A stretch of 64,000 nt of DNA from Phyto melanocephala (Eukaryota; Arthropoda; Insecta; Diptera; Rhinophoridae): the NCBI GenBank assembly GCA_941918925.1, contig OW799237.1, forward strand, positions 93,903,015 to 93,967,014, written 5' to 3'. The number at the start of each line of letters is the position of its first letter. The stretch's first letter is position 1. The translations under genes were made by a program, and so were the position numbers. The notes below the pieces were generated by a model. That model did no database searches. It worked only from the letters and a program-made list of their open reading frames with translations, and was not told the DNA's origin. Of the stretch, positions 7,338-63,367 are shown piece after piece.

Positions 7338-9067
7338 CAGTGATGGGAAATTAGATTTTGATTTCGGTATCAAAAAATTTTTCTAGGAGTACTTTTTTAA
7401 CCTCAAGAGTAACAAATCGCTATTTTTTTTTTTAATTTTTATTAAAGAGTAAAAAAATCTTTATGAAAACAAAAAGTTAACAAAAACCATAAATCAATAC
7501 ATAAAAAGTTAATTTTACCTATAAACAAAACATTTTTTAAATTTATTTTGTACTTTTTAAGGTATATCACTTTAAACTGAAATAGCCCCTAGATAAATAG
7601 CGCCAATTGAACAGGAACATAAGTAAATAATTATAATATGCGATCAAAAGTAATAAAGTTTACAGCAACTACAATTTGTTTGACATTATTTTATTAGATA
7701 TAAATATCTATACATATATGTCAAAGTTATAACAACAGGAGTCTTTAGAATTCAATAAATCTTTGGTCTGAATTAGACTTGATACGGTATCAACATTAAG
7801 CCTATTTCTTTGTTTGGTTTTTATTAGATTTTGATACGAAAAAATCCCCTCTACATTTGCAGATGAGTGAGGGATACATAAAATTCCAATTGCAATTTTC
7901 GAAATGTCGGAAAACATATATTTGCCCAAAGAGTTTTTAGTTTTAGCCACTTTAGACCAAAAACTACAAATATTTTCATTTACCAAAGGCTTAAGCTCTT
8001 CAACATCCGCCAATGCCCTGTACTGAGAGTTTATATTTTCAAAATTTTGCCTTTCAGTTGGAAACATTTTTAACAGAAGTGGTACAATATTATTAGTTCT
8101 ACCAGACAAAACGTTTAATAGAATAAAAGAACTTATGATCTTTAAAACGTATTGAAGAAATAAAAAGGTCATTTTGAATACTGGATCAAAAATTCCGGAT
8201 CTTATAAATTCGATCCTTTCATTTCTTGAATCCCTTTCATAATCGTTTAACTTAAAATAGTACCTCAACGGCTCCCATTGCCCCAAAATTCTATTAACTA
8301 CTTCCTCCCGTGAAAGCCACCTGGTTGCTGCATATTTATATATGACATGCAATCCAGTACCGAAATACTCTTGGAATGTTGTGAACTCCTCCCTTCTACT
8401 TGAGCTATTGCAAAAATGGAAATTTGTCTTTTATAAATTTATAAATTTCAATCGGTATTCCATATTTCGATGCAGCGGATGATGTTAAATTTAGTATGTG
8501 GCAAATGCAATCGTTTGTAAAAATGTGAGGAATTTTTTCTTTAAACTTTGCTTGCATACCATTCAAGGGGCCCATCATGACCGCACAGTTGTCGGTTGTA
8601 ATACCGATTATATTATTTAAAGGTATATTGCATAGCTCTAAAAATTTTAAAGTACTTTCAAAATGTCACTTGATGAGCTGACATCTAAATATTTTAATTA
8701 AACCTAAAAATCGATCACGACATTGTCCATTAAAAGTTCTAATAACAATCACCAAGTTTTAGTTGATGCTTATATCAGTGCTCTTATTAAGCACTATCGA
8801 AGAAAACATAATTTTACAAAAATCAGAAATATCAGAAATATTTTATGCAAAACAAAATAAGAAGACATAATAAGAACTAGAGTTGCCATTTTCATAAACT
8901 ACAAGTGATGAAGGGGAAATGCTAAAACAGATGAATTTAAAAAATCAATGGTTTTAAATTTTAGACGTATCACTGAGAGTATCAAATGTTACAGAGGAGT
9001 AACATGGTATTTTTTCAAATGAAATAGTATCAAAAAAAGTACGATCGTAACAACTTTTCCATCACTG
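7338..9067 (-). mobile_element. hAT transposon, decayed, with exact ends
   Basis: Termini are CAGTGATGGGAAA on the left and CAGTGATGGAAAAG on the right when read inward. A perfect 8-bp duplication GTTTCAAT flanks it at 7330-7337 and 9068-9075. The 1,730-bp element carries a broken transposase on the minus strand. Confidence 0.92.
7708..8830 (-). pseudogene. hAT transposase remnant
   Basis: A 214-codon open stretch (8352-7708) carries AATRWLSREE, the conserved R-W motif of hAT transposases, and ends with SSANVEGIFSYQNLI, the dimerisation and catalytic-Glu region. Upstream on the same strand, broken frames give SSIVLNKSTDI, then GITTDNCAVMMG, containing a conserved catalytic Asp, and IFTNDCICHILNL. 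The order is right for a hAT transposase, but a frameshift, stops and a missing N-terminus make it non-functional. It sits inside the element at 7338-9067 and was presumably its own transposase. Confidence 0.85.
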
Positions 9068-35438: not shown

Positions 35439-36183
35439 ATGACAAAACCAGTTTTATATTACACTGCCCGCAGTCCACCCTGCCGTTCAGTTCTGCTAAC
35501 CGCTGCTGCCTTGGGAGTTGATTTGGAGTTGAGGTAGGAAAAAAAGTGATTATTTTGCTGAATTTAATTTCATTTTTGAGTGTTTTTTTTTTAGACCCAT
35601 GAATTTAGAAGAAGGTGATCACTTGACAGCTGAGTTTCTTAAGCTCAACCCTCAGCACACTATACCGGTATTAGATGATAACGGTATTGTTGTCGCTGAT
35701 TCTCATGTCATTTGTTCATACTTGGCTGAAAAGTTTGCTAGAGATGAAATCTTCTATCCCAACAACTACATACAACGCATGAAAGTTGATGCGCTCCTTT
35801 ACTATGATTGCGGTCATCTTTTTCCCCGTTCTCGTTTAATGGTTGAACCCATTTTGTACTTTGGTGCCGATAATATTGGCGAAGAAAAAATCTCCTACAT
35901 GCAAAAAGCTTATGATGGCCTAGAGAAAAATTTAGCCTCTTCCAAATATTTGTGCGGTGAGGATTTAACCATTGCCGATTTATGCTGCATAGCTACCGTC
36001 TCCTCAGCTATGCTTTTTGCTCCCATCGATGAGGAGAAATTCCCCAATGTCAAAGCCTGGGTTGATCGTTTATCCGAATTGCCCTACTATAAGAAGAACA
36101 ATCAAGAAGGTGTCGATACTTTGTACAAGTTTGTCGAGGATAAAATTAAAGAAAATAAAAAGTTAAAAGCGATTAAAAACTAA
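35439..36183 (+). CDS. GstE11: Epsilon-class glutathione S-transferase, GstE11-like
   Basis: Coding exons are 35439-35533 and 35595-36183, joined across a 61-bp phase-2 GT-AG intron (GAG|GTAGGA ... TTTTTTTTTAG|ACC), giving 227 residues. The enzyme conjugates glutathione to electrophiles in the cytosol; Epsilon GSTs of flies serve detoxification. The N-terminal thioredoxin-like domain starts MTKPVLYYTARSPPCRS, with Ser12 as the expected catalytic residue. It contains HTIPVL, with the cis-Pro of the glutathione site, and DSHVICSYL, with the glutathione gamma-glutamyl contacts. The helical C-terminal domain follows from about residue 92 (YYDCGHLFPR, then LTIADLCCIATVSS). Length and motifs are normal for the class. 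The remembered closest Drosophila match is GstE11; another late Epsilon paralogue is possible. Confidence 0.93.
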
Positions 36184-42285: not shown

Positions 42286-42617
42286 GATAAGACTGACAAA
42301 TATCTGATTGTTTTTACGGTCATTTCGTACAGATTTCTATCAGACATGTCTGGTAAAACTAATTTACGACTTGTCTGATAGATTTCTGACCCCTTTCGTA
42401 CTGATTTGTAGGAGGGATTTAATTGATTTTTGTTTACATGTCTGCTAGATTTCAGACTGATTTTAAACAGATTTTTAAAAGCTTTTTAATTGCATTTTGT
42501 TCCGTTATACCTTTAACACAAATTAAATTCACATCAGGTAATAACATCTGTAAAACAATCACAAAAGAACCGGAATGTGTTAAATTACACTAAAAAAAGC
42601 AAAATGTTTGTTTAGTT

Positions 42618-43723: not shown

Positions 43724-44854
43724 CGATGATACAAACAATACTTCAAATTTCCATCCTTAACATACATACATCATTAAAGAAAAATACAATTGTTCACTTC
43801 ACAATCCCGTATTGTTTTCTGTAACTTCTATTGAAATACAGTTTTAGTTTATTTACTTGTAAACACAATTTCAGTTGTAACGATTTATCGGTGTATGCTT
43901 GTCACCATTTAGACAAGTAAACATTTTGTTTGGAGAAGAGAATATGAAATTTGTTTCCCGTTCTCGAAGGCACGCTTTGTGCTTTCATTCTTATTGTTTA
44001 CATTTGCTATGCTTTTTGGCATTTGCTTCATTTCTTTTCGGCGTGCTTTGTTCTCTATGTTTTATATTTGACTTTGTATAAAAATAAAAAATAAATAATG
44101 TTGTAAATAAAATAAAAAAATTAAATATTAACTGGAACAATGTTTCCCTGTATGACCGCGAAGGAAAATACAAGAGAATTCCAGATGTTTCCCTGTGTAA
44201 ACGGGGACCTTGTATTGCTAAATGTCAAATAATAGCAAAGGTAAGATAAATAAAAATCAGGACTGGAAAATTCGATCAAATCTTACTTCTGCAGAGCTAT
44301 AAAATCTATTTTAAAACAATTTTTAGTAAAAAATTTTAACTACAACACAAAACTACATGCATTTTTTTTTTTGTTAATTTATGCCAATCTTTTAAAAGTT
44401 TGCTGAATGAGCATTAAAAAAACACGTTTGCTTACATTTTGATTTTTGAAATGTATTTATTTATAGTCTATTAATTTGAAGTCGAGCACATTAGGAGAAA
44501 TTTGCTCCACAAATATCGTTACAATTCTTATTGGGTACACGGAACACAGTTACATTCCATTTAAATATATATTTGACACAACGTGCATTAGGCACAAAAA
44601 TTTTTTTATTTTTTTTTTTCTCACTTTTTTTAAATTTAAATGTACACGATTTGCACACAAATTAAAATTAAAAAAAAAAAAAAACAATTTATTCACTTGT
44701 TACTTTTTAAACTTTTAAATTAAATGGCGTATACTTAAAAGTAAACAAACACAAGCTTTGACAAATTGGTTTTAAAGTTCGTAAACAGCTGATAATCAGC
44801 TTTGCTCATGAGTTCACCTGATATAAATTCGCCTTGTACGAAGATTGTTTTAAA
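43724..44854. other. Spacer with another CAAGGC-type end
   Basis: No gene was recognised. Near 44,790-44,836 the minus strand reads CAAGGCGAATTTATATCAGG followed by CAGCTGATTATCAGCTG, a CAAGGC-type MITE end without a located partner. Confidence 0.4.
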
Positions 44855-45186
44855 ATTTAAATACAAAATTTTCTTTTGCGTTGTTATTTATTACTTTTAT
44901 TGTTAACAAGTTTTATAAATAAAAAATATATTTCTTTTAAACATATATATATGTATGTCTCTATGTATGTATGTATGTACTCGTGGGCAGGGGCTTGTTA
45001 ATAAATTAATGAATACTCTGCATCACAACACAAAATTTTGTTTAAAAGAAAATTAAATTTTTTATTTAACTGCAGTTAAGTAACTTTTGTCAATGCTAAA
45101 TGTCGTAATACATTTACGAACTTGCCCGAATTGAATATTTAATATAAATACATTTACATAAAGACATACGTATGTATTTTTTTTGT

Positions 45187-46331
45187 TTACATTTTAAAAT
45201 CACTTTCGATTTCTTCATTCGAATTTAAAAACATAACTTGTTCCACCATCAACTCCTTTGAGATAGAATCGAATACATTTTCGCAGAACATGCTACTGGC
45301 TGATGCAAGAATTTTCTGCGGTGTAGCACTACTCGCTGGGGTTGTCAACACCGAGTAGCTCAACTGATATAGAAGGGGAAAGTTATTTTTATGTACTTCC
45401 CACCATAGAAAAACATCAAAATCTTCACTGTTTAGCACGCGGGTATTCTTATAATAGTCCAGTTCATGAATTATGAGCTCGTTGGGACCAACACTTACAT
45501 CGTTTTCTATAAAATCAGAAAATAGTTTTTCGTGTTTGAATAGAGTCGAATTAGTTGTTTTTAATTCTTGTTTAACATTTGATTTATTTTCATCTTTAAG
45601 GCATTTCATTAGACGTATACATTCATCTTTAATGAATTGCTTGTCCTCATCGCTAAATTGTAGCATCTTATTTGCGGGTGGATAAAGAAAAACAGCTAAT
45701 TTATGAATAGTTGCAATATTGTGCGTTTCAATTACGTGCAAGTGAGACTGCAATTTATTCTTTAAACTTTTTATAAAATCAAGCCTGCCATAATCTGTGG
45801 CACAGAATTTCTTCAATTCATGCAGATAAACAAACACTAGGTGCTGTGTAGGAGTGTTGTTATTTACCAGCGCTTCTATGGCTTCTTCAAAGGGCTGCAA
45901 GGTTTTCATCAGAGCCCTCAAATGGTTTGTTTTTATATTACTAAGTTGCTCAGCTTCGTTTTTATCGCCCAGAATCTGTGTTATTAAGTTCCAATTATTC
46001 TCTATCGAAGATAACATTTTATACGCGGTATTCGAACGAATGGGACAATAACTGTTTAAAGAACGACTTAAAATGGTATTTGGTTCTGATTTTTTACAAA
46101 AATCTACTAATTTCTCACAAGCTCTAATGAGTTCTGCTACCTCGACGACTTCATCTGTGACTTTTTGTAGTGAGTTTTTCAGTAAATGACTGATACTGGA
46201 AATTTTTTTTATATCTTGTGGCAATTTTTTAAAATTGTCGCAATTTTCTGTTGTTACTATTATTGATTTACGCGAAAGTTTGAGGTCAAAGTCCTTAAGA
46301 ATATCTTCGACTATTGCAGTTATACTTTGAC
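45187..46331 (-). CDS. hAT-derived gene copy 1, C-terminal exon (catalytically dead)
   Basis: This exon follows an acceptor (ACATTTTTAG|GTCAAAG) and completes a phase-1 junction with 48145. It encodes 380 residues plus the stop. The order matches Hermes/hobo transposases: SIIVTTENCDNF in the place of the second catalytic Asp segment (Asp to Thr), SHLLKNSL, CPIRSNTAYKML where hAT proteins have C-P-x-R-W (Trp to Ser), AVFLYPPANKML, EDFDVFLWWEVHKNNFPLL, and TTPASSATPQKILA where the catalytic Glu is Gln. The frame is fully open. The protein should keep the hAT fold but lack transposase chemistry. A domesticated DNA-binding role is inferred. Confidence 0.85.
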
Positions 46332-46654
46332 CTAAAAATGTAAAGTTAAATGTATGGTATGTTATTAACGTGACCTATTCGTTAGATAATTTAAAGGATT
46401 TAGTTCAAATTAAGAATGTTAAAATAAAGATTACCCGTTAGATTGTTTCATATGTCAAATTTACAGATTCTTGAGAAAAATTTATTAATTTACTATGTGA
46501 GAGTTGGCAGCTCTGTCATTAAAATTACTATGGCACTTTTAAGTTATTAGTCAATAGGAACACAGGTAGCGTGACGTGAAAGTTACAGCATGCGCAAAAA
46601 AAATATTATGTGTGCTTGATACCGTAATCTTTATTTTATCATTCTTGTAAATAA

Positions 46655-47053
46655 AGCCCCTTTCGCATTAGGCAACTATAATTGCGCAAGTCTTGTATTT
46701 GTGGGTGTGAGAGGAAAGGTCGGTGTAAAGGGGGAAAGAATTGCCGAGATTTGAATACAGACTTGCTTGTACTTGGCAATTCTGCTTCTGCTGTCATTCT
46801 TGTCTTGGAATATTTATTTGTTTTTGACATTGTCTTTTATTTCTTCTTCGGTGTGTTGTGTAATTTTGTGTGTGTGAAAATTTTATTAGTTTATAAGTGA
46901 ATCAAATATTTAAAAATGATAAACTCGAGCATAAGCAAATTAAACTTGCTCAACCAAGTTGCTCAATGTGAACATAAAAGCAAGTTCAAAAGAAAATAAA
47001 TAAAAATTAAAATTATACTTGCGCAATCAAAGTTGCCTAATGCGAAAGGGGCC
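46655..47053. mobile_element. Harbinger-type MITE in the intron of copy 1, GGCCCCTTTCGC family
   Basis: The inverted ends GCCCCTTTCGCATTAGGCAA extend over about 35 bp. Target duplication is TAA (46652-46654, 47054-47056) if the first base is A for G. It is absent from the intron of gene copy 2. A second member is at 62912-63310. Confidence 0.8.
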
Positions 47054-48144
47054 TAAATGAAGATGTTTGCTATGAAATTCGTCAGCAATCTGTTTTGTTT
47101 TATCTTTTTAAAACATTTTTTTTACTCAAACATATTGTAACTACATCATAGGTGCCAATTTCATCAAACAATTGTTTATAACTCCACCTCTTTTATTTTA
47201 ATGCTCTTTTTTTTAGTCGTCCATGAGAGAGTGACGTGTGCACATGCTTAGCAACTGTGTTGATATTTATTCAAATACAGTGCGTAAAAGAATTATGATG
47301 GAATTCGAAAAATGTTTTGTTTTTATAAAGTCAAATTTAAAATTGCAAAATTTATTGATAATTTTCCATTTTACTAAGTAAAAAAATAATAAATTGAGCG
47401 TTTAAGCATTTTTATTAATTTTCTACACCCAAAACTATTTCTTGTATTAAATTTTAATGAAAATCTTTGCGCTTTTTTTTTCTTTTAACTAAAAAATAGC
47501 AAATTCAGTGTGAACTGCATTATTATATTTATTAAAAACCCAGAAAATTTTTTTGTGACTAAATTTTGATACGCTGTGAGCTTACTTTTTCAAAGCACTG
47601 TACTTTAAAACTCTCACCAATACGGCTGCAAAACATTTTTGGGCATCTATGAACTACATATACATACATAGAAAGTAATTGCATTTTAGAGAAAATTTTT
47701 TAAATTTTTTTGATGAAATTGGACAATTATAAATGAAAAGTTTGCAAAGGAACAGGTGATGATCAGCTGATTAATTAAAACTACATAATTTAGTTTATCC
47801 TGATACAATAATCTTTCTTGATACATACATACGATTGTGTAATCTTAAATTCTTATAACATATCGTTACCTACAACGCAAATCGGCCTTACTTACACAAA
47901 ACTCAAAATCGATTTTTTTTATTGATTTTAGTGTGTTTCATCAGAAAACATCACCACAAAAGAAGCCCCAAAAAAAATCGAAATTGTAATCACAATTTTT
48001 TTAAAACATTTGTATGAAAAATCATAATATTTTAAATTAAAGAATGTGTTTTTTAACATTATTGTAAAGTTATTAATACTTGTTAGGACGGTTTGCTTTT
48101 TAGCTAACGATATGTACAAACATGTGTATAAGTACAATACTTAC

Positions 48145-49063
48145 TTGTATACTTTTCGCCTTCAACCAATCTCAGTCCCAGCAAGCGAAATTTTAATGTT
48201 CTATTTTTAAAAAAATGTATTGTTACCGCTAAATAATGTTTCTTTAAAATATCATCAGTCCAAATAGCTGTCGCTATACCAAATCCTTTCTCTTTAATTT
48301 TAGAAATTTCCAATTTTACTCTTTGAAAGCATTTCTCATAGATTTCAGCCAAATTTTTAGCAACAATTTCTGAACTCGGCAAAATTTTATTCACATCTAT
48401 GCTGTGACCAAATTTTGCTCCCAACGCAAGGAACTCTTGAAATATGGCCTTTAAACCATCATCCTTTACAATATCTAATGATCTGCAATATTCCATACAG
48501 CATTCCGCTATCAATTTTGTCAGGTTTTTGTTGTCTTTTGACAGATAATTGTTGCCATCATTTTTATCATTCGATTGATTACTGTGGATGTCATTGTTTT
48601 CTTCGTTATTGTAAATATCGTCATTTTCATCATCATTGTTAATGTCATTTTTTGCATCATTATTATACAAGTCATTATTCTCATTTGACTCGAAATTGCT
48701 TTCATCGTTACAGTCGAGAGGGTTTACGAGCTCATCATCCGACCCTGAATTCGTACTAAATGTTTCTATTTTTGGTGTTTCAAGTTCAACTATTGAAATC
48801 GGATTTTCTATTTTACTTAGAAAACTATTAGTGTAGCACTTATGTCTCATCAAATTGGAAGTGCTGCGACAAGTAAACTTGTAAATAGTTTTACACCGAA
48901 TACAGCATACGTAGCCGGTAATTTCTACGCCATTTTGATCTACTAATTTAGCAAAGATATTCCATACTCTGCTTTTACCTTTTTTTCTGCGAAAAACTAA
49001 TTCACCACTAGCAAGTTTTTCAGCAAGTTGACTGGTATAAGAGCCATCCGAACCTACTACCCA
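48145..49063 (-). CDS. hAT-derived gene copy 1, BED-finger exon
   Basis: The exon lies between the acceptor ATATTTTAG|TGGG (49064) and donor ACAA|GTAAGTATTG (48144) and is open for 306 codons plus one base. It encodes a BED-type zinc finger (VWNIF, YVCCIRC, NLMRHKC), then an acidic Asn/Asp-rich linker of about 50 residues, then the first part of the hAT fold (LTKLIAECCMEYCRSLDIVK, GAKFGHSIDVNKILP). It ends GIATAIWTDDIL, where the first catalytic Asp, two residues before the Trp, is Ala. There is no Met near the acceptor, so the start codon lies in an upstream exon I could not locate. The intron to 46331 is 1.8 kb. Confidence 0.85.
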
Positions 49064-49731
49064 CTAAAATATTAAACGATTAATATATGTATGTGCAAAC
49101 ACTCAGACTCTTATTGTGAGCTATTTTCAATCTTCGACTGTGTTCGAAAGAGCAGATCATAAGAGTTTTCATTCGATAAAGAAATTTTAATAATTTTTAT
49201 TGCTCATTTTGTTTGTAATAATTTATATTAGCTTTGACTTTAAGCACTATTTGTGTTCGCAAATTAAGAAAAATAAAGTCAAAAGCAAAATACTTTTTGC
49301 GGGTCAAGGAATAAAATCGACTTATTACGAATTTAACAATTGATTAAGAACGAGAATTTTAATACTCATCGAAGATCGAATATCTCATATTAAGAGCCTT
49401 ATTATACTACACATGCTCATAGGTCTTATTCGTAAATTCATCACTGTACATTATTAAGACATCTAGCCTTTGTGAAAGCATTCCAAACTGCATTATTTTT
49501 GCAATTGTCACAGATTATTTTTATTTAATCATATACGTTATGATCATTATACCGTTATAATACAGTACAGTTACGAATTTAGGAACAAGCCTATATACAG
49601 TCGAATTGGATTAATTAAAAATAGAAAATTCATGAAATTTGTTCACGTATGCATGATCTTTATTAAAACCAATTTCAGATAAGTGAAACCATTTCGCTCG
49701 ATATTAGTTTAAAGCCATTTATTTTTATTAT

Positions 49732-49842
49732 TCATTTTTATATCCTCAACTATGCTAACTCAGTTCATTTTAATCATTTATTTAATACTCAAATAGTTTT
49801 TTTTTAATCACTAAATATTTTTTCGTTAAATTAATGGAAACT
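49732..49842. other. Short spacer
   Basis: AT-rich with no signal. Confidence 0.4.
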
Positions 49843-51031
49843 TGTTCTGAAAGTTTATGAATAGGGGAGTCGATTAAGCTCTGTCAGTCTGTCCGTGTGT
49901 ATGTTGAAATCAACTTTTTAAAGCCCCCCGATATCACCTGGACCCGGGTGACGTATTAAAATATCAGAAATATTCTGGAGTTGAAAATCAAAAATATCAG
50001 TACATAAACAACTGAGATATGAGTAAAAACCAACGGCCACCTCGTTTTTTTTAAAACAACATACAACAACAACATACATACATACAGACGTTTTATACTG
50101 GTTAGAGTAAACGTGGCATCGAACCCCAGCTGAGCCCAAATTTTTTTTTTTTTTTATTTTATATATTATTTATAATTTTATTATTTTTTTAATATCTTTT
50201 TTTTGATTTATTTTTTATTTTTTTAATATTTTTTTTAATTTTTTTTTTTAATTTTTTTTTTATATTTTATATTTAATTTTTATATTTTTATTATTTTTTT
50301 TAAATATTTATTCTGTTTTCGCTAAAAATTAAAATGGTCCGGGCCTAGGATAATTTATAGACACAGTTGTTACTATTTATAATTTTGACATGCCTCTGGA
50401 GATACTTTTAGGCCGAAGTTTTAGGCAAAAATTATTTTAAAAAATATATATGTATGTATTTTTTTTTTTTTCAAATATATCAAAATTTTTAAACTCCTAA
50501 ATAATTTGTAATCACGCTTAAAATACCAAATTGTAAGCCGTGTTCTCAGAAATTATTTCTAAGAAAAACTGACAAATCGATTTGAAATCAACTGAGATAT
50601 CAGCACCAAAGTACAACTGATTCGGTGTATTTCCTAAAATTTACAAACAAAAATAAAAGTTAGAACAAAAAGGAAAAAAAAATTAAGATGGCGTCCCAGA
50701 TTAAATGGCGAATATACATATGAGTCAAATATAGTAGTAACGACTTTGTCCGCTTAATCCCCACAGTATAAGTGTCAATAAAAGTCGCAACATGGCGTCT
50801 GAAACAAAATAGCGGAGCGAATTTTTTTAATCACAACAATATGGGTATCAAATGAAAGGGCTTGACTAGTATAATACAGATAACTACGTAAAAATTAAAA
50901 ATCAAAGATGGCGTCGGAAAAAATGAAAATCTAAAATCTAGACTAAGCTACAATGTGATCATTATACCTATCTACATGACGGTGAGAGGTATTATCAGAT
51001 TCGGCACGGCCGAATATAGCGCTCTTACTTG
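49843..51031 (+). repeat. DINE-like element, composite of two subfamilies
   Basis: It begins inside the head block (TTCTGAAAGTTTATGAATAG), passes through CCCAGCTGAG and a T-rich core, then changes to the AAGATGGCGTC-containing interior also seen at 31.8 and 57.2 kb. It ends with the ATTCGGCACGGCCGAAT hairpin and CTCTTACTTG. Confidence 0.65.
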
Positions 51032-51183
51032 TTTTTAACGTCCTTAAGCACGGTGTAATTACATAAGGTGATAGGGCAGAGAGTATTTTTTGTCTCTCTT
51101 ACCAGCTAGATGTAGAAACTAAATTTCAATCCGAATTGCATCAGCGCTGATGCAACGTCTGAATACATATATGTAGGTTTGAT

Positions 51184-51391
51184 CAAGGCATATTTATTCA
51201 TCAGGTAATTGCAGTTCGGAGAGAATTTTTTGTTTATATTTTTTATATATGAAGTTTGACATTTGAAATAAATTAGAAAAGAGAGAAAATTGTTTTTTAT
51301 TTTTGCATTTTGACAGCTGAAATTAAAAATAAGTGTTGAAAAAAATAATCAGCTGGCGAATCAAGAGTACCTGATGAATAAATATGCCTTG
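51184..51391. mobile_element. hAT-type MITE, CAAGGCATATTTATTCATC family
   Basis: The 208-bp element has about 24-bp inverted ends CAAGGCATATTTATTCATCA. A perfect 8-bp duplication GGTTTGAT lies at 51176-51183 and 51392-51399. Confidence 0.92.
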
Positions 51392-51817
51392 GGTTTGATA
51401 TAAAAATCCTTAATATTTTTTTTAAATTGAAACACAAAATTTTCTATTGCGTTGTTATTTATTATTTTCATAGTTAACAAGTTTTATAAATAAAAAAATA
51501 TATTTGTTTTAAACATACATACATAAATGTATGTCTATATGTATGTATGTATGTACTCGTGGTCAGGGGCATGTTAATAAATTAATGAATACTCTGCATC
51601 ACAACACAAAATTTTGTTTAAAGGAAAATGAAATTTGTGGATTTTCACATAAAATTTTTTATTTAAGTGCAGTTAAGTAACTTTTGTCAATGCTAAATGT
51701 CGTAATACATTTACGAACTTGCCCGAATTGAATATTTAATATAAATACATTTACATAAGCACATACATACGTATATAAGTATGTACAGCTTTAAAATATT
51801 TACTTTTTTGTTTATTA

Positions 51818-52956
51818 TTAAAAATCACTTTCGGTTTCTGCATTCGAATTTACAAACATAATTTGTTCCACCGTCAACTCTTTTGAGCTAGAATCCAATA
51901 CTTTTTCGCATAACATGCTACTGGCGGTTGCAAGAATTTTCTGCGATGTAGCACTACTCGCTGGGGTTGTCAACACCGAGTAGCTCAACTGATAGAGAAG
52001 GGGAAAGTTATTCTTTTGTATTTCCCACCATTGAAAAACATCAAAATCTTCACTGTTTAGCACGCGGGTATTCTTATAAAAGTCCAGTTCCTGAATTATG
52101 AGCTCGTTGGGATCACAACTTGCATTGTTTGCAATAAAATCAGAAAATAATTTGTCTTGTTTGAATTGAGTCGCATTAGTTGTTTCTACTTCTTGTTGAA
52201 CATTTGATTTATTTTCATCTTTAAGGCATTTCATTAGACGTATACATTCATCTTTAATGAATTGCTTGTCCTCATCGCTAAATTGTAGCATCTTATTTGC
52301 GGGTGGATAAAGAAAAACAGCTAATTTATGAATAGTTGCAATATTGTGCGTTTCAATTACGTGCAAGTGAGACTGCAATTTATTCTTTAAACTTTTTATA
52401 AAATCAAGCCTACCGTAATCTGTGGCACAGAATTTCTTCAATTCATGCAGATAAACAAACACTAGATGCTGTGTAGGAGTGTTGTCATCTACCAGCGCTT
52501 CTATGGCTTCTTCAAAGGGCTGCAAGGTTCTTATCAGAGCCCTCAAATGATTTGTTTTTATATTACTAAGTTGCTCAGCTTCGTTTTTATCGCCCAGAAT
52601 TTGTGTTATTAAGCTCCAATTATTCTCTATCGAAGATAACATTTTATACACAGTATTCGAGCGAATGGGACAATAACTGTTTAAAGAACGACTTAAAATG
52701 GTATTTGGTTCTGATTTTTTACAAAAATCTACTAATTTCTCACAAGCTCTAATGAGTTCTGCTACCTCGACGACTTCATCTGTGACTTTTTGTAGTGAGT
52801 TTTTCAGTAAATGACTGATACTGGAAATTTTTTTTATATCTTGAGGCAATTTATTAAAATTATCGCAATTTTCTGTTGTTACTATTATTGATTTACGCGA
52901 AAGTTGGAGGTCAAAGTCCTTAAGAATATCTTCGACTATTGCAGTTATACTTTGAC
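51818..52956 (-). CDS. hAT-derived gene copy 2, C-terminal exon (catalytically dead)
   Basis: Acceptor ACATTTTTAG|GTCAAAG at 52957; 378 residues plus stop and two bases of split codon. It has the same substitutions as copy 1: VTTENCD at the second Asp position, CPIRSN for the R-W motif, and ASSATSQKILA for the catalytic Glu. The first 230 residues are nearly identical to copy 1, while the last 110 differ at about a quarter of positions. The frame is fully open despite this divergence. This is what is expected of a gene under constraint or of very unequal exchange with its twin. Confidence 0.85.
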
Positions 52957-53129
52957 CTAAAAATGTAAAGTTAAATGTATGGTATGTTATTAACGTGACC
53001 TATTCGTTAGATAATTTAAAGGATTTAGTTCAAATCAAGAATGATTAAATAAAGATAAAATTAATCAATTTAGTATGTGAGAGTTGGCAGCTCTGTCATT
53101 AAAATTATTACTGCACTTTTAGATTATAA

Positions 53130-53743
53130 TGCTAGGCGCACAACTGGCACGAACGATGAATTTCGGCCAACACGACAAATTCGTCTGTAAAAATTAGCTG
53201 TGTAAATTCGTCGTGTGAAGCACAATAACGACGAAAAAGTAATATCTATTATAGTTCAGAAGTTGTTTGCTGTTTGTGCAGAGAAAGAACAAAAATAATT
53301 AAAAAATTTAAATTTTTGCAAAACTCAACAAAATAATGAAACGTAAACGTTTGCAAAGAATGTGGTGGGTACGTGCAGTAAACAATAATTAATATTTTGG
53401 TTTTGTATAACAGCTTATAGTGTGACCATATTAAAAAAAGATTACTTACAGAAATCAAACATTTGATATAAAAAAGAACAATTATATAAGTAAAAATAAA
53501 CTTTATTTTCAAAAAAAGTTGAAAAGTTAAACCAAAAGTAAAAAGTATGTTCACATTGTACCAATTTATTCGTCGTTTGTCGGTGTAAAAATAGAAATAA
53601 ATCTATTGCAGAGTTCGCCTCGTATAGCGAATTTCTACCGACGCCATAATTGTATACATCTCATGTACGCAAATGTGTTTTATTTTTTAAAACGAATATT
53701 CGCGGCGTTAAATTCGTTGTTCGTTCCAATTGTGCGCCTAGCA
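53130..53743. mobile_element. Harbinger-type MITE in the intron of copy 2, TGCTAGGCGCACAA family
   Basis: The ends TGCTAGGCGCACAACTGG and, read inward, TGCTAGGCGCACAATTGG differ at one position. Flanks TAA (53127-53129) and TTA (53744-53746) are a 3-bp TWA-type duplication with one change. Copy 1 of the intron retains the empty site at about 46,535-46,555. Confidence 0.82.
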
Positions 53744-54227
53744 TTAGTCAATAGGAACACAGGTTGCGTGACGTAAGAGTTAGAAATGTGCAAAAAATTG
53801 TATTTATATATGCTTGATACCATACATACATACACATTGTAACTACAGATAAGGTGATAGCATATCGCAAAAAAAATTGGACAATTATGAATGAAATTTT
53901 TACATTGCAAAGTAACAGGTGATTAATTAAAACTACATAATTAAGTTTATCCTGACTCAAAAACTCAAAAACAAAATTGTGTTATCTTAAATTCGTACTA
54001 CATATCGTTACCTACAAAACGCAAATCGGCCTAACTAACACAAAACTTAAAATCCTTTGTTTTGACCGAAATTTTAAGCACAATTTATTTCAAACATTTG
54101 TTTTGAAAATCATAATATTTTAAATTAAAGAATGTGTTTTTTAACTGCTGCTGTTATTTACTTTGTTAGGACGCTTTGCATTTTAGCTAACGATATGTAC
54201 ATACATGTGTATAAGTACAATACTTAC

Positions 54228-55146
54228 TTGTATACTTTTCGCCTTCAACCAATCTCAGTCCCAGCATGCGATATTTTAAAGTTTCATTTTTAAAAAAATG
54301 TATTGTTACCGCTAAATAATGTTTCTTTGAAATATCATCAGTCCAAATAGCTGTCGCTACACCAAAGCCTTTCTCTTTGATTTTAGAAATTTCCAGTTTT
54401 ACTCTTTGAAAGCAATAGTCATAGATTTCAGCCAAATTTTTAACCACCTTTTCTGAATTCGGCAAAATTTTATTCACATCTATGCTGTGACCAAATTTTG
54501 CTCCAAACGCAAGGAACTCTTGAAATATGGCCTTTAAACCATTATCCTTCATAACATCATATGATCTACAATATTTCACACAACACTCCGCTATTAATTT
54601 TGTCAGGTTTTTGTTGTCTTTGGACAGATAATTGTTACCATCATTGTTGTCGTTCGATTGATTACTGTAGATGTCATTGTTTTCTTCGTTATTGTAAATA
54701 TCGTCATGTTCATCATCATTGTAAATATCAATTTTTGCATCATTATTATACAAGTCATTATTCTCATTTGACTCAAAATTGCTTTCATCGTTACAGTCGA
54801 GAGGGTTTACGAGCTCATCATCCGACCCTGAATTCGTGCTAAATGTTTCTATTTTTGGCGTTTCAATTTCTATTATTGAAATTGGTTTTTCTTGTTTATG
54901 TACAAATCTATAAACATAACACTTATGTTTGACTAAATTGGAAGAGCTTGAAGAAGTATACTTGTAAATACTTTTACACTGAAGACAGCATACGTAGCCG
55001 TTAACTTCTACGCCATTTCGATCCTCTAATCTGGCAAAGACACACCACAATCTGCTTTTACCATTTTGTCTACGAAAAACTAATTCACCACAAGCAAGTT
55101 TTTCAGCAAGTTGTCTGGAATAAGAGCTATCCGTAGCTACTACCAA
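54228..55146 (-). CDS. hAT-derived gene copy 2, BED-finger exon
   Basis: This is the same 919-bp exon as in copy 1, from acceptor ATATTTTAG|TTGG (55147) to donor ACAA|GTAAGTATTG (54227). The frame is open throughout. BED finger residues are LWCVF, YVCCLQC and NLVKHKC. The acidic DIYNNEENND-type linker follows. The catalytic-region motif is GVATAIWTDDIS, again Ala for Asp. The first about 100 residues differ from copy 1 at about a third of positions, although zinc-binding residues are kept. Joined to 52956 across a 1.27-kb intron it gives 685 residues without the unknown first exon; Hermes-type transposases are about 610. Confidence 0.85.
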
Positions 55147-55554
55147 CTAAAATATTAAACGATTAATATATGTATGTGCAAACACTCAGACTCTTATTGT
55201 GAGCTATTTTCAATCTTCGACTGTGTTCGAAAGAGCAGATCATAAGAGTTTTCATTCGATGAAGAAGTTTTAATAATTTTTATTGCTCATATTGTTTGTA
55301 ATAATTTATATTAGCTTTGACTTTAAATACTATTTGTGTTCGCAAATTAAGAAAAATAAGTCAAAAGCAAAATACTGTTTGACCCGCAATGAAATGGACT
55401 TATTTCGAATTTAACAATTGATTAACCACAAGAATTTTAATACTCATCGAAGATCGAATATCTCATATTAAGAGCCTTATTATACTACACATACTCATAG
55501 GTCTTATTCGTAAATTCACCACTGAACATAATTAAACTTTCTAATGCCGTATTC

Positions 55555-55756
55555 CAAGGCATATTTATTCATCAGGTACTCTTGATTCGTCAGTTGATTA
55601 TTCACACTTATTTTTAATTTCAGCTGTCAAAATGCATTAATAAAAAACAATTTTCTCTCTTTTCTAATTTATTTCAAATGTCAAACTTCATATATAAAAA
55701 ATATCAACTAAAAATTCTCCCCGAACTGCAATTACCTGACGAACGAATATGCCTTG
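55555..55756. mobile_element. hAT-type MITE, CAAGGCATATTTATTCATC family, inverted copy
   Basis: It is the reverse orientation of 51184-51391. Flanks share GCCGTATTC (55546-55554 and 55757-55765): an 8-bp duplication plus one chance base. It is absent from segmental copy 1. Confidence 0.88.
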
Positions 55757-56271
55757 GCCGTATTCATAAAAAATATTTTTGGTTTTTTGAAGGTTTATTT
55801 GACAAATGTCTGTCAAAGCTCAAATAATTTTAATTTATTTTTTTAAGAATGCGGCAGTTAAGCTTTGAAAAAGCATTCAAAATTGCACTGTTTCTGATGT
55901 TATCACAGATTATTTTTATTTGGTCATGTACGAGTATTTTACAGTTATAATGCAGTACAGTTACGAATTTAGGAACAAGCCTATATACAGTCGAATTGGA
56001 TTAATTAAAAAAAGAAAATTCATGAAATTTGTTCACTTATCTTTATCTTTTATCTTTTTTAAAACCAATTTCAGATAAGTGAAAACCATTTCGCTCGATA
56101 TTAGTTTAAAGCCATTTATTTTGTTAATGGCAGTATGTATGTAAAAATTTTAAACTCATTAATTTTTTATGTATTTTTAATTGTAATAGTTGATTTTTTC
56201 AAATTCTTCAAAACCAATGCTTGGAATTGCTACCCCCATAATGGTCTAGTTTACAATTGTAAACACTTTCC

Positions 56272-60330: not shown

Positions 60331-62649
60331 TATTTTATATATAAAGATAACAAAAATTAAAAATATCTATTTCATTTTTTAAATTATAGGAAAAATTCTG
60401 ATACAAATGTACTTTGGTGCTTATATCTCAGTTGCTTTCAAACCAATTTGTTACTTTTTCTTAGAAATAATTTTCGAAAAATATACATATTTTTTCAGGA
60501 GAGTTTTAATTGTTACACTATCCAATTCAATTTTTTAGGAGTCCAAAAAAGCGTTTTAGATAAAACTTTGTGCTGTAAATTGAACTTTCTAACAGTCATG
60601 TAAATATGTCATAAAAATTTCAGACAAATATCATTTAAAAATAAGATTCAAGCGGCATACGCGGTTGCCTATGAAAACCACAAATTTGTTATTACAGACT
60701 ATTGTTTATAATTAAATAATTTTAATCTGTGAAACGCTAAATGTACCACATTGTTATTTCTTACATTTTGTACTCTATTTTAAACATACAAAATTTAATA
60801 CTCGGTAATAGATGAGGCCACCTTAAAAAAAAGCATTAAGTTTTTCAGATAGCTTTTTTGACGAGTACAAAACACCATTAGTTTGTATTTTTACAAAAAT
60901 ATATGTATAAGTATATACAAATGTATTTTCACTTAAGCAGTGCTTTAACAAGCTCATTGAACTGATTTAAAACTAAACAATATTAAAATTTATAAATACT
61001 TATACTATAATTTCAATCAAACAACATGCACAAATCCGAAATCGACTGTAATTTTTTTCAATTTTAAAATAATTTACCTCATCCATTTTTTCAACAAATT
61101 ATAAAAACTGTTTAATAACACCACCCACAAATTTTATAAAGATTTAGCAGAAGGCTGCAAAAAGTCAATAAAAATTCTGTATTTATATCTTCGTTTGTTT
61201 TACGGTATAGAAATACGTGTATACACACTAAGCACTGAATTGACACTATTATCAACTATAGATACATACTAGTACAGTAATGTACACGAAATAAATAAAA
61301 TGAAAGACAAGAGAAACTGAACTGTTTGTGTTTGTTTCTTTTTTTTTCTTTTATGTTTTATTCACCCTGATTGAACTCGTGTAGTAGTGTTGCTGACTTC
61401 GAAAAATGTTACATTTTTTAAGTATTAGTATGTATATCGTGTAATTTTTCTACAACGTGTGTGTTTTCCTACCATATTTAAAATTTTAGGTTTTTAATTA
61501 AATCACAGATTTAAACAAATCGTTTATAAACCTTTGATAATTTAAAAATCTGATTGTAAATATGGTCGTTGTATCTACTTTGATTACCATAAAATTTATA
61601 TTTTCCTAAAAAACTAATAAATTTTGTATACATATTTGGTTCGCTCTTTATTTTGGCTTTTAGGAAAGCAGGAATTGGTGCAATTGTGTTATATGTTGCT
61701 TGTATGTTGTAGTGGATAAATTTTTACTTTTGAGTGTGCAAAACTAAATGGTGATTCCGGCAACACTTAGTAGATACTGCATTCGTTTTGTACATTGCTT
61801 TTACAGTGATGCTAACCTTTTTTTCACACAAAATGGAAATGGTTAGAAAAAATATTATGACACAAATTCTAGTAACTCCAAATTCTGACCATAATTTTAT
61901 ATTTTCGCTTCTTATTTCTTTCAAAGAGCACTTTCCACTTCAAAAAAGTAGCATAATGAAAGCGCAAACGAGTGTGAAAAGTAATATAAAAAAAAATATA
62001 TTTGAAAACAAAAAAGTAATCGTTTTCTACTATTCTCTTCTCTACCTTATTCAATAAAAATTTTATTATTTATTATAAAATAATCATAAAATAATATATC
62101 GTTGGTCACATGTAGAAAGACCCTAACTCAAGCAATTGCAACTTTTTTACAGGAGAAGGTACAAAACGTAATAGAAAGTGTATTAACAAAATGTAATTTC
62201 TTTTGTAGAATTCATTGTAAAAATGTTATTTGTGATACTACCTATATCATTAAATTTTTGTTTGGAGGTGTATTTGTGTGATATACTTACATATATTAAA
62301 ACCACTAAAAAATACAATTTCGTAAAATATACGAGTTAGAATATATGTATGTATACTTTTAAAAATATGTAAACATTAAAAAATAAAATATAGCTGAATA
62401 TGTTCTGTAATGAGTTCATATGCACTGAAAAAACGCTTATAAGATATTGTTTTCTCTTTAAACTACCCTAAATATAATTTTGTAGTAACCTGCAGCTTAA
62501 TATTTTTAACATTTATTGTATCTATTCGTTTGTACTCGATGTTTCTGCTATGATTTACCGTTTCTTCATTGTCGTGTTTTAATATTCTATCATATTCTAC
62601 TTTGTTTAAAAACTAAGCGGTAGATAAAAAAAGTGATGATTGCTTCGTT
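60331..62649. other. AT-rich intergenic, nothing recognised
   Basis: Open stretches of 60-90 codons on both strands near 61,724-62,057 overlap each other and show no domain. None is called. Confidence 0.4.
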
Positions 62650-62652
62650 TTA

Positions 62653-63367
62653 AGGCCATGACTGACTATCAGATTTAGTCGTTCGATATGTCAAAAATTG
62701 TATGTGTGTTCAGAAAGTGTGATAGTGTGGACATAAAGTGCACACGTGTGACAGATTTTTTGACATGTGTGTCCGATTTGATAATCTTTTGAAAATTTTC
62801 ATAAAATAATAGAGTCTGTGCGATCAGAGTTGCTTTTTCTAAGCAAGTATGACAGTGTGGCATCCAATAACACATTTTGTTGCGATTTTTTCATGTAGGA
62901 CAGAAAACTATGGCCCCTTTCGCATTAGGCAACTATAATTGCGCAATTCTTGGGTTTGTTGGTGTGAGAGGAAAGGTCGGTGTAAAGGGGAAAGAGTTGC
63001 CGAGATTTGAGTACAGACTTTCTTGTACTTGGCAATTCTGCTTTAGCTGTCATTCTTGTCTTGGAATATTTATTTGTTTTTGTCATTGTCTTTTATTTCT
63101 TCTTCGGTGTGTTGTGTAATTTTGTGTTTGTGAAAATTTTATTTGTTTATAAGTGTATCAAATATTTAAAAATGATGAGAAGTTGGAAAAACCTGGAAGA
63201 AATTGAGCAACCAAGTTGCTCAATGTGAACATAAAAGCAAGTTCAAAAGAAAATAAATAAAAATTAAAATTATACTTGCGCAATTATAGTTGCCTAATGT
63301 GAAAGGGGCCTATCAGATTTTTATTTGACATAATCGCACGACTTTGTAGAATAGTCAGTCATGGCCT
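62653..63367. mobile_element. MITE with AGGCCATGACTGACTAT ends, Harbinger-type
   Basis: Inverted ends AGGCCATGACTGACTAT match exactly over 17 bp and more loosely beyond (GTCGT(T/G)CGAT). Target duplication is TTA (62650-62652, 63368-63370). It carries the nested MITE at 62912-63310. Confidence 0.8.
62912..63310. mobile_element. Harbinger-type MITE, GGCCCCTTTCGC family, nested
   Basis: The inverted ends GGCCCCTTTCGCATTAGGCA extend over about 35 bp with one change. Target duplication TAT (62909-62911, 63311-63313). It is about 90% alike to 46655-47053, same length (399 bp). Confidence 0.85.

Follow-up and report, generated by a model that had tools for sequence, protein, structure and literature searches.

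A head-to-tail array of Hermes-type hAT transposase genes that have lost their catalytic residues and were probably domesticated in the fly Phyto melanocephala

The Hermes transposase of Musca domestica carries, in order, a BED finger, a Hermes DNA-binding domain, an RNase H fold with an insertion, and a hAT dimerisation region. It is reported that the substitutions E572A or E572C block every step of Hermes transposition while D248A leaves partial activity with Mn2+ (PMC2533014), and that K585, R586 and R588 touch the transposon ends and H268 sits in the active site (PMC4763223). Several host genes offer parallels. Vertebrate ZBED1-6 are hAT-derived host genes with BED fingers that expanded after capture, and they are reported to keep the Asp-Asp-Glu (DDE) triad (PMC3606216). 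Kat1 of K. lactis, a domesticated hAT, is reported both to keep and to need its DDE residues (PMC4763223), and DAYSLEEPER of Arabidopsis is described as a domesticated hAT of a plant (PMC4029315). Drosophila DREF and human ZBED1 are BED proteins, of which DREF is reported to bind DNA and regulate genes (PMC6179265), and the Drosophila insulator proteins BEAF-32A and BEAF-32B are reported to bear two different BED fingers on shared bodies (PMC5021357). Here we compare these systems with an array of four Hermes-like genes (A to D) in Phyto melanocephala, of which A and B lie in the window, i.e., the whole 64,000-nucleotide stretch that was analysed (C5:93903015-93967014; contig OW799237.1), and C and D lie just past its end.

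Our array shares its domain order with Hermes and with four related loci of the same genome (L017-L020), and two of these (L017 and L019) also have an intron at the same position and a tiny ATGGA leader exon. It is unlike Hermes elements in having lost D180, D248, E572 and R586, in showing no credible terminal repeats or 8-bp duplication, and in forming a tandem row at a single locus instead of dispersed copies. The loss of all three triad residues also sets it apart from the ZBEDs and from Kat1, and it differs further from the ZBEDs in its tandem arrangement and Hermes-type origin. DREF is likened to the array by description, the solved-structure matches of the array proteins being to Hermes only. 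A and B would resemble BEAF-32A/B in their different fingers, but BEAF is one gene with alternative N-termini, whereas in the array whole bodies are duplicated. Among the openly licensed PMC papers listed as matches, judged by title and abstract opening, none dealt with a Hermes-like family of flies that is arranged in tandem and catalytically dead. Four genes are present, their active site is lost, their coding sequence is maintained, and no credible mobility signals accompany them. Our preferred reading, with a probability of about 0.75, is that a Hermes-type hAT transposase was domesticated and gave rise to this tandem family, whose proteins bind DNA but are catalytically dead.

Comparison of the A and B proteins with the window and 29 kb beyond its end placed the four hAT-derived genes head to tail on one strand, in the order D-C-B-A; a preliminary description of the locus had recognised a pair. 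In gene A, body exon 1 (48145..49063, minus strand) is an open frame with a Hermes match and encodes the BED finger, an Asn/Asp-rich acidic linker, the Hermes DNA-binding domain (PF10683, E=1.2e-5) and the first part of the RNase H fold. It is followed by an intron (46332..48144, minus strand) holding a ~400-bp repeat insertion at 46656-47055 that is missing in B, and by the last exon with the stop (45187..46331, minus strand), which encodes the remaining RNase H fold, the insertion domain and the hAT dimerisation region (PF05699, E=6.5e-10). Gene B has the same layout, all on the minus strand: body exon 1, again an open frame, at 54228..55146 (PF10683, E=6.2e-6), an intron at 52957..54227 with its own separate insertion (~53129-53745), and the last exon with the stop at 51818..52956 (PF05699, E=4.7e-11). 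Both introns are drawn from splice sites that are canonical and the same in the two genes (CAA followed by GTAAGT, the donor starting at 48144/54227; acceptor TTTTAG preceding 46331/52956). The joined frames are open over 687 and 685 residues with a single terminal stop in each, gene A ending two codons later than B, so that the exon layout, the frame lengths and the phase-matched intron described earlier all hold; those gene models lacked a start codon, however, and need an upstream exon. Self-comparison showed that the duplicated units (~44841..49725 with A and ~51412..56122 with B, minus strand) include flanks and introns, not the bodies alone. Genes C (C5:93969409-93967346; 619 residues) and D (C5:93974406-93972030; 616 residues) are open, each with a start codon and three exons: a tiny leader exon encoding Met-Asp-Thr-Asp-Asn (ATGGATACAGATAAT) precedes a phase-0 intron, and the second intron lies at the position of the A/B intron. 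Their last exons are ~50% identical to those of A/B, and the Asn/Asp-rich linker of ~70 residues is found only in A and B among the four.

All four genes scored above cut-off for the hAT dimerisation region (PF05699), which makes the family hAT by descent, and for the Hermes DNA-binding domain (PF10683). Gene A matched the solved Hermes transposase 8edg at E=5.3e-65 and the solved Hermes BED domain at E=5.7e-10, and alignment placed the BED zinc ligands (C-x2-C ... H-x-C) as in Hermes in 4/4 genes. The SHLL, FLYPP and WWE landmarks are present in both A and B; together with the zinc ligands, this bears out the earlier view that finger and landmarks remain. A ten-protein tree united the array as one group with 100/100 support but did not settle its placement among the genome's own elements. 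A protein database search that scored 7995 candidates returned none at E<=0.001, and no relative occurred in the viral or prokaryote contigs searched, as expected for a fly gene.

Aligned to Hermes, none of the four genes retains D180, D248 or E572 (0/4). In A, B, C and D, respectively, the D180 position is occupied by Ala, Ala, Tyr and Lys, the D248 position by Thr, Thr, Ser and Asn, the E572 position by Gln throughout, and the R586 position by Val, Val, His and His. No array gene has an intact CxxH motif (Cys gone in A/B, His gone in C/D), and W319 is Ser in A/B but retained in C/D. Ala at the first catalytic Asp, Gln at the catalytic Glu and Ser for W319, as claimed earlier for A and B, were thus read in both. 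For comparison we took Hermes-like loci from a genome search (739.75-Mb assembly, nine contigs) whose query was the last exon of A. They are the 28 rows ranking directly behind the array (L017-L044) among 104 non-array match rows, or 27 places, given that L021 lies inside L026. E572 is kept in 27/27 of these places and R586 in 26/27, along with D180 in 8/8 that could be aligned, D248 in 9/9, W182 in 8/8, C265 in 10/10, H268 in 9/10 and W319 in 10/11; even the stop-bearing copies (L020, L023 and L024) still carry the catalytic residues. Considering the 110 columns that are invariant in Hermes and three relatives, the whole array kept 0/9 active-site or end-contact columns versus 49/101 of the others (p=0.004), the nine, R318 among them, being our own selection from the literature and general background.

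The four genes form one 100/100 group and share Gln at E572, so the loss of E572 most simply predates their common ancestor. Catalytic loss ahead of the A/B duplication, the order of events proposed in the preliminary description, is thus supported. It is scarcely credible that the proteins are still nucleases acting through other residues. A Glu does stand beside the D248 column in A/B, and the partial activity of D248A Hermes with Mn2+ (reported in PMC2533014) gives this idea some footing, but E572 and D180 are gone from 4/4 genes with no acidic replacement, and E572A is reported to abolish all Hermes steps (PMC2533014).

Codon maximum likelihood gave a ratio of nonsynonymous to synonymous substitution rates (dN/dS) of 0.296 for C-D (synonymous divergence, dS, 0.395; p=9e-15 versus 1), 0.578 for A-B (dS 0.117; p=0.0075 versus 1) and 0.15-0.19 for A/B versus C/D, where dS is saturated. 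Within A-B, codons 307-560 had a dN/dS of 0.25 (p=0.005). Across 1227 aligned bases of homologous noncoding sequence, not counting large insertions, A and B differ by 92 substitutions and 13 indels, whereas their coding sequence differs by 147 substitutions and 0 internal indels, with 20.8 expected (P about 1e-9). Nonsense changes were likewise absent, against expectations of 6.2 for A-B (P=0.002) and 13.3 for C-D (P=2e-6). Repeats have inserted separately in the introns and flanks of A and B, and none in their exons. Maintenance of the coding sequence by selection after the loss of mobility is supported by these data, strongly for C-D and moderately for A-B, and with Gln shared at E572 throughout the array, selection would in the simplest history have acted after catalysis was lost. 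The open frames had been described earlier as maintained, and our counts agree. A dN/dS near 1 across species had been named as an outcome that would speak against a host function; between array copies it was not found overall, the A-B value being only moderately low.

These counts also bear on the possibility that A and B (but not C and D) are duplicates of recent date without a function, the unit having been copied without its leader exon and the frames being open for lack of time. Such a history would account for the fact that the 2.7 kb between A and B (49064-51811) hold no convincing ATG exon for A, and for an A-B dN/dS of 0.58 overall that rises to ~1 in the C-terminal part. It is at odds with the contrast between coding and noncoding indels, the lack of A-B stops, the overall dN/dS below 1 and the low value in codons 307-560, and we consider it rather improbable.

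With regard to mobility, the genome search with the last exon of A recovered the array loci at 100, 90, 50 and 48% identity, while the other 104 of 108 rows reached at most 39% over at least 100 residues (one 49-residue stretch had 47%). The first body exon recovered the array at 100, 82, 49 and 46%, with no more than 42% over at least 100 residues elsewhere and up to 57% in shorter, mostly BED-only stretches outside the array. The search scores the best candidates only, and counts of relatives are therefore lower bounds. A high-copy family with terminal repeats, considered earlier as a contrary case, was not found: among the places scored genome-wide, identity above 42% over at least 100 residues occurred only at the four array loci. 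We scanned for terminal repeats with one setting throughout (14-base ends, at most 2 mismatches, at least 7/8 in the flanking duplication). Around A, B, C and D there were 5, 18, 1 and 0 matches with an 8-bp duplication, all with ends below 30% G+C and none credible. The same scan detected exactly one 50% G+C match in each of the controls L017 and L020 (TAAAGACCGGCATG...CACGCCGGTCTCTA, with a perfect 8-bp duplication). This is in line with the earlier statement that no terminal inverted repeats or 8-bp duplications were found around A or B. L017 and L020 show the identical duplication and share short flanks, and they may go back to a single insertion that was later copied or to two separate ones that hit the same repeat.

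The genome's many Hermes-like copies (108 match rows) could suggest that the array genes are ordinary fixed, decaying transposon copies that are open by chance. However, the stop-bearing copies L020, L023 and L024 keep their catalytic residues, the opposite of what is seen in the array; terminal repeats of any credibility are missing there, and purifying selection on C-D is strong. We regard this explanation as very unlikely. A plain decaying transposon is rejected on the residue pattern together with the indel counts and can be taken as largely refuted.

Nonetheless, several points weigh against domestication of a catalytically dead family. A second alignment opens a one-residue gap that puts the neighbouring Glu of A/B on the D248 column, so that Thr at the second catalytic Asp, as first described, is found in one alignment and not in the other, and the residue there is uncertain for A/B. 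The 27 comparison places are not independent, falling into five families at 75% identity with 17 places in one of them. Change is not confined to the active site, as 23/101 of the other invariant columns are also altered in all four array genes, and the Gln at E572, being one base change away, could have arisen twice. The A-B dN/dS is only moderately below 1, with values of 0.73 in the BED part and 1.3 in the last 125 codons that are both indistinguishable from 1. Pfam zf-BED was under its cut-off in A, was not listed for B up to E=1, and was not listed for C or D up to E=0.001. Finally, as noted, 49064-51811 holds no convincing leader exon for A, and that of B is tentative.

If the genes were domesticated, a Hermes-type hAT transposase gene would have shed its terminal repeats, lost the catalytic glutamate (E572Q) and become a host gene, and the captured gene would then have multiplied in tandem to at least four head-to-tail genes. 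The proteins would have retained the BED zinc finger, the Hermes-type second DNA-binding domain and the hAT dimerisation region, with the active site gone. Homology to Hermes predicts DNA binding and oligomerisation for A-D, and the most likely action would be oligomeric, sequence-specific DNA binding without cutting. In such a scheme the BED finger would read the site and the transposase body would build the complex, and the outcome may be regulation, insulation or repression. We infer that the genes are transcribed and have a host regulatory role, either on host genes or in the repression of resident elements.

The BED part outpaces the remainder at the protein level in both pairs (nonsynonymous changes, Fisher p=2e-10 for A-B and 1e-6 for C-D). 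Between A and B, 52 differences fall in the opening 300 bases of the BED exon versus 5 in the adjoining 200 intron bases (p=4e-8). The synonymous rate in the BED part is weakly raised for A-B (p=0.04) and not significantly so for C-D (p=0.12), and because of this, gene conversion of the remaining sequence is a suggestion only. Diverging BED fingers on a common core point to a family of DNA readers that is small but can expand. It is also possible that the proteins specifically repress the resident Hermes-like elements, being unable to cut but binding element ends or hetero-oligomerising with active transposase, so that the change in the BED part would reflect an arms race. This would be consistent with the presence, in the same genome, of related elements that bear terminal repeats and include copies of 98.7% identity, and with the faster change of the N-terminal BED part in both pairs, which in A-B goes far beyond the adjoining intron. 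It is less easily reconciled with the loss of the end-contacting R586 in 4/4 genes, with a last-exon identity to the elements of only ~30-39%, and with a BED-part dN/dS that does not exceed 1 in either pair. We hold such dedicated repression to be unlikely.

The first body exon of A and B starts right after the in-frame TAG of its splice acceptor and no ATG lies ahead of the BED finger; an upstream leader exon is thus required. For B, a tentative leader exon lies at 61078..61086 (minus strand; ATGGATGAG followed by GTAAAT), would encode Met-Asp-Glu, and is possibly shared with A. This candidate resembles the leaders of C and D as well as those of L017 and L019 (ATGGARAAC), and its donor scored 8.6 bits on an approximate weight matrix. 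Leader motifs of this kind with a donor of at least 6 bits occurred twice in 186 kb (both strands), which corresponds to a ~10% probability of a chance hit in the 9.2 kb searched. The sequence upstream of the candidate was not significantly like that of C or D, with 12.6% and 70% of random windows scoring equally high. The duplicated unit ends at ~49725/56122, inside the presumed first intron of B, and the leader may have been left behind when the bodies were duplicated. Element relatives have an intron at the same place and tiny leader exons (ATGGAAAAC followed by GT in L017, ATGGAGAAC followed by GTAAGT in L019), and for this reason the intron and leader of the array were probably inherited from the element.

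A more speculative suggestion, which we consider doubtful, is that A and B are alternative bodies of one gene, with the phase-0 leader at 61086-61078 splicing to either. It is raised by several features: the duplicated unit ends short of the leader candidate; A has no detectable leader; the A and B acceptors are both phase 0, in intron sequence that is nearly identical; and divergence of the BED part contrasts with the likeness of intron and core, as if gene conversion renewed the body and selection kept the fingers apart. If true, the locus would produce two dead-transposase proteins with different BED fingers and a nearly identical oligomerising core. Together with C and D, it would then resemble BEAF-32A/B but evolve by tandem duplication, with dead-transposase scaffolds carrying an expandable range of BED readers.

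The domesticated family preferred here would amount to a natural experiment. Within one genome, live-type and decaying relatives of Hermes keep their catalytic residues, and four clustered descendants have lost all of them yet keep their frames under selection. The array allows a test of what a transposase is good for once it is unable to cut, and the contrast with the ZBEDs suggests that the DDE triad itself need not be what hosts retain.

Other Hermes-like loci were also observed. At C4:50960531-50977650, three Hermes-like last exons lie head to tail with a spacing of ~6.26 kb, each with an upstream stop and an open C-terminal frame, which could be either a further array or a segmental repeat. 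A group of 17 loci (L027-L038 and L040-L044) are >90% alike, and most of them match the C-terminal half only; all have the catalytic Glu, and they form a degenerate or non-autonomous family. The locus at C3:46670532-46672130 has open frames of 276, 124 and 154 residues with no stops in the matched parts. In the window itself, 7708-8430 (minus strand) holds a further hAT C-terminal fragment (PF05699, E=1e-7) that was unmatched by A or B in the protein comparison.

Several repeats surround the array. The ~400-bp repeat in the A intron (46656-47055) has inverted ends (CCCCTTTCGCATTAGGCAACT), recurs at 62913-63312 upstream of B with ~92% identity, and looks like a miniature inverted-repeat transposable element. 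The insertion at 53129-53745 is found in the B intron only and also has inverted ends (CTAGGCGCACAA). A third repeat, starting CAAGGCATATTTATTCATCAGGTA with small variations, occurs at 42612, 51178 and 55554, one copy being inverted. Elsewhere in the window, a 267-residue open frame without a Pfam match lies at 26523-25468 (minus strand), with a leader-like ATGGAAAATAAG ahead of it whose donor is strong (10.5 bits on the same approximate matrix), and 35533-36183 (plus strand) is an exon of a glutathione S-transferase gene, a clear host gene.

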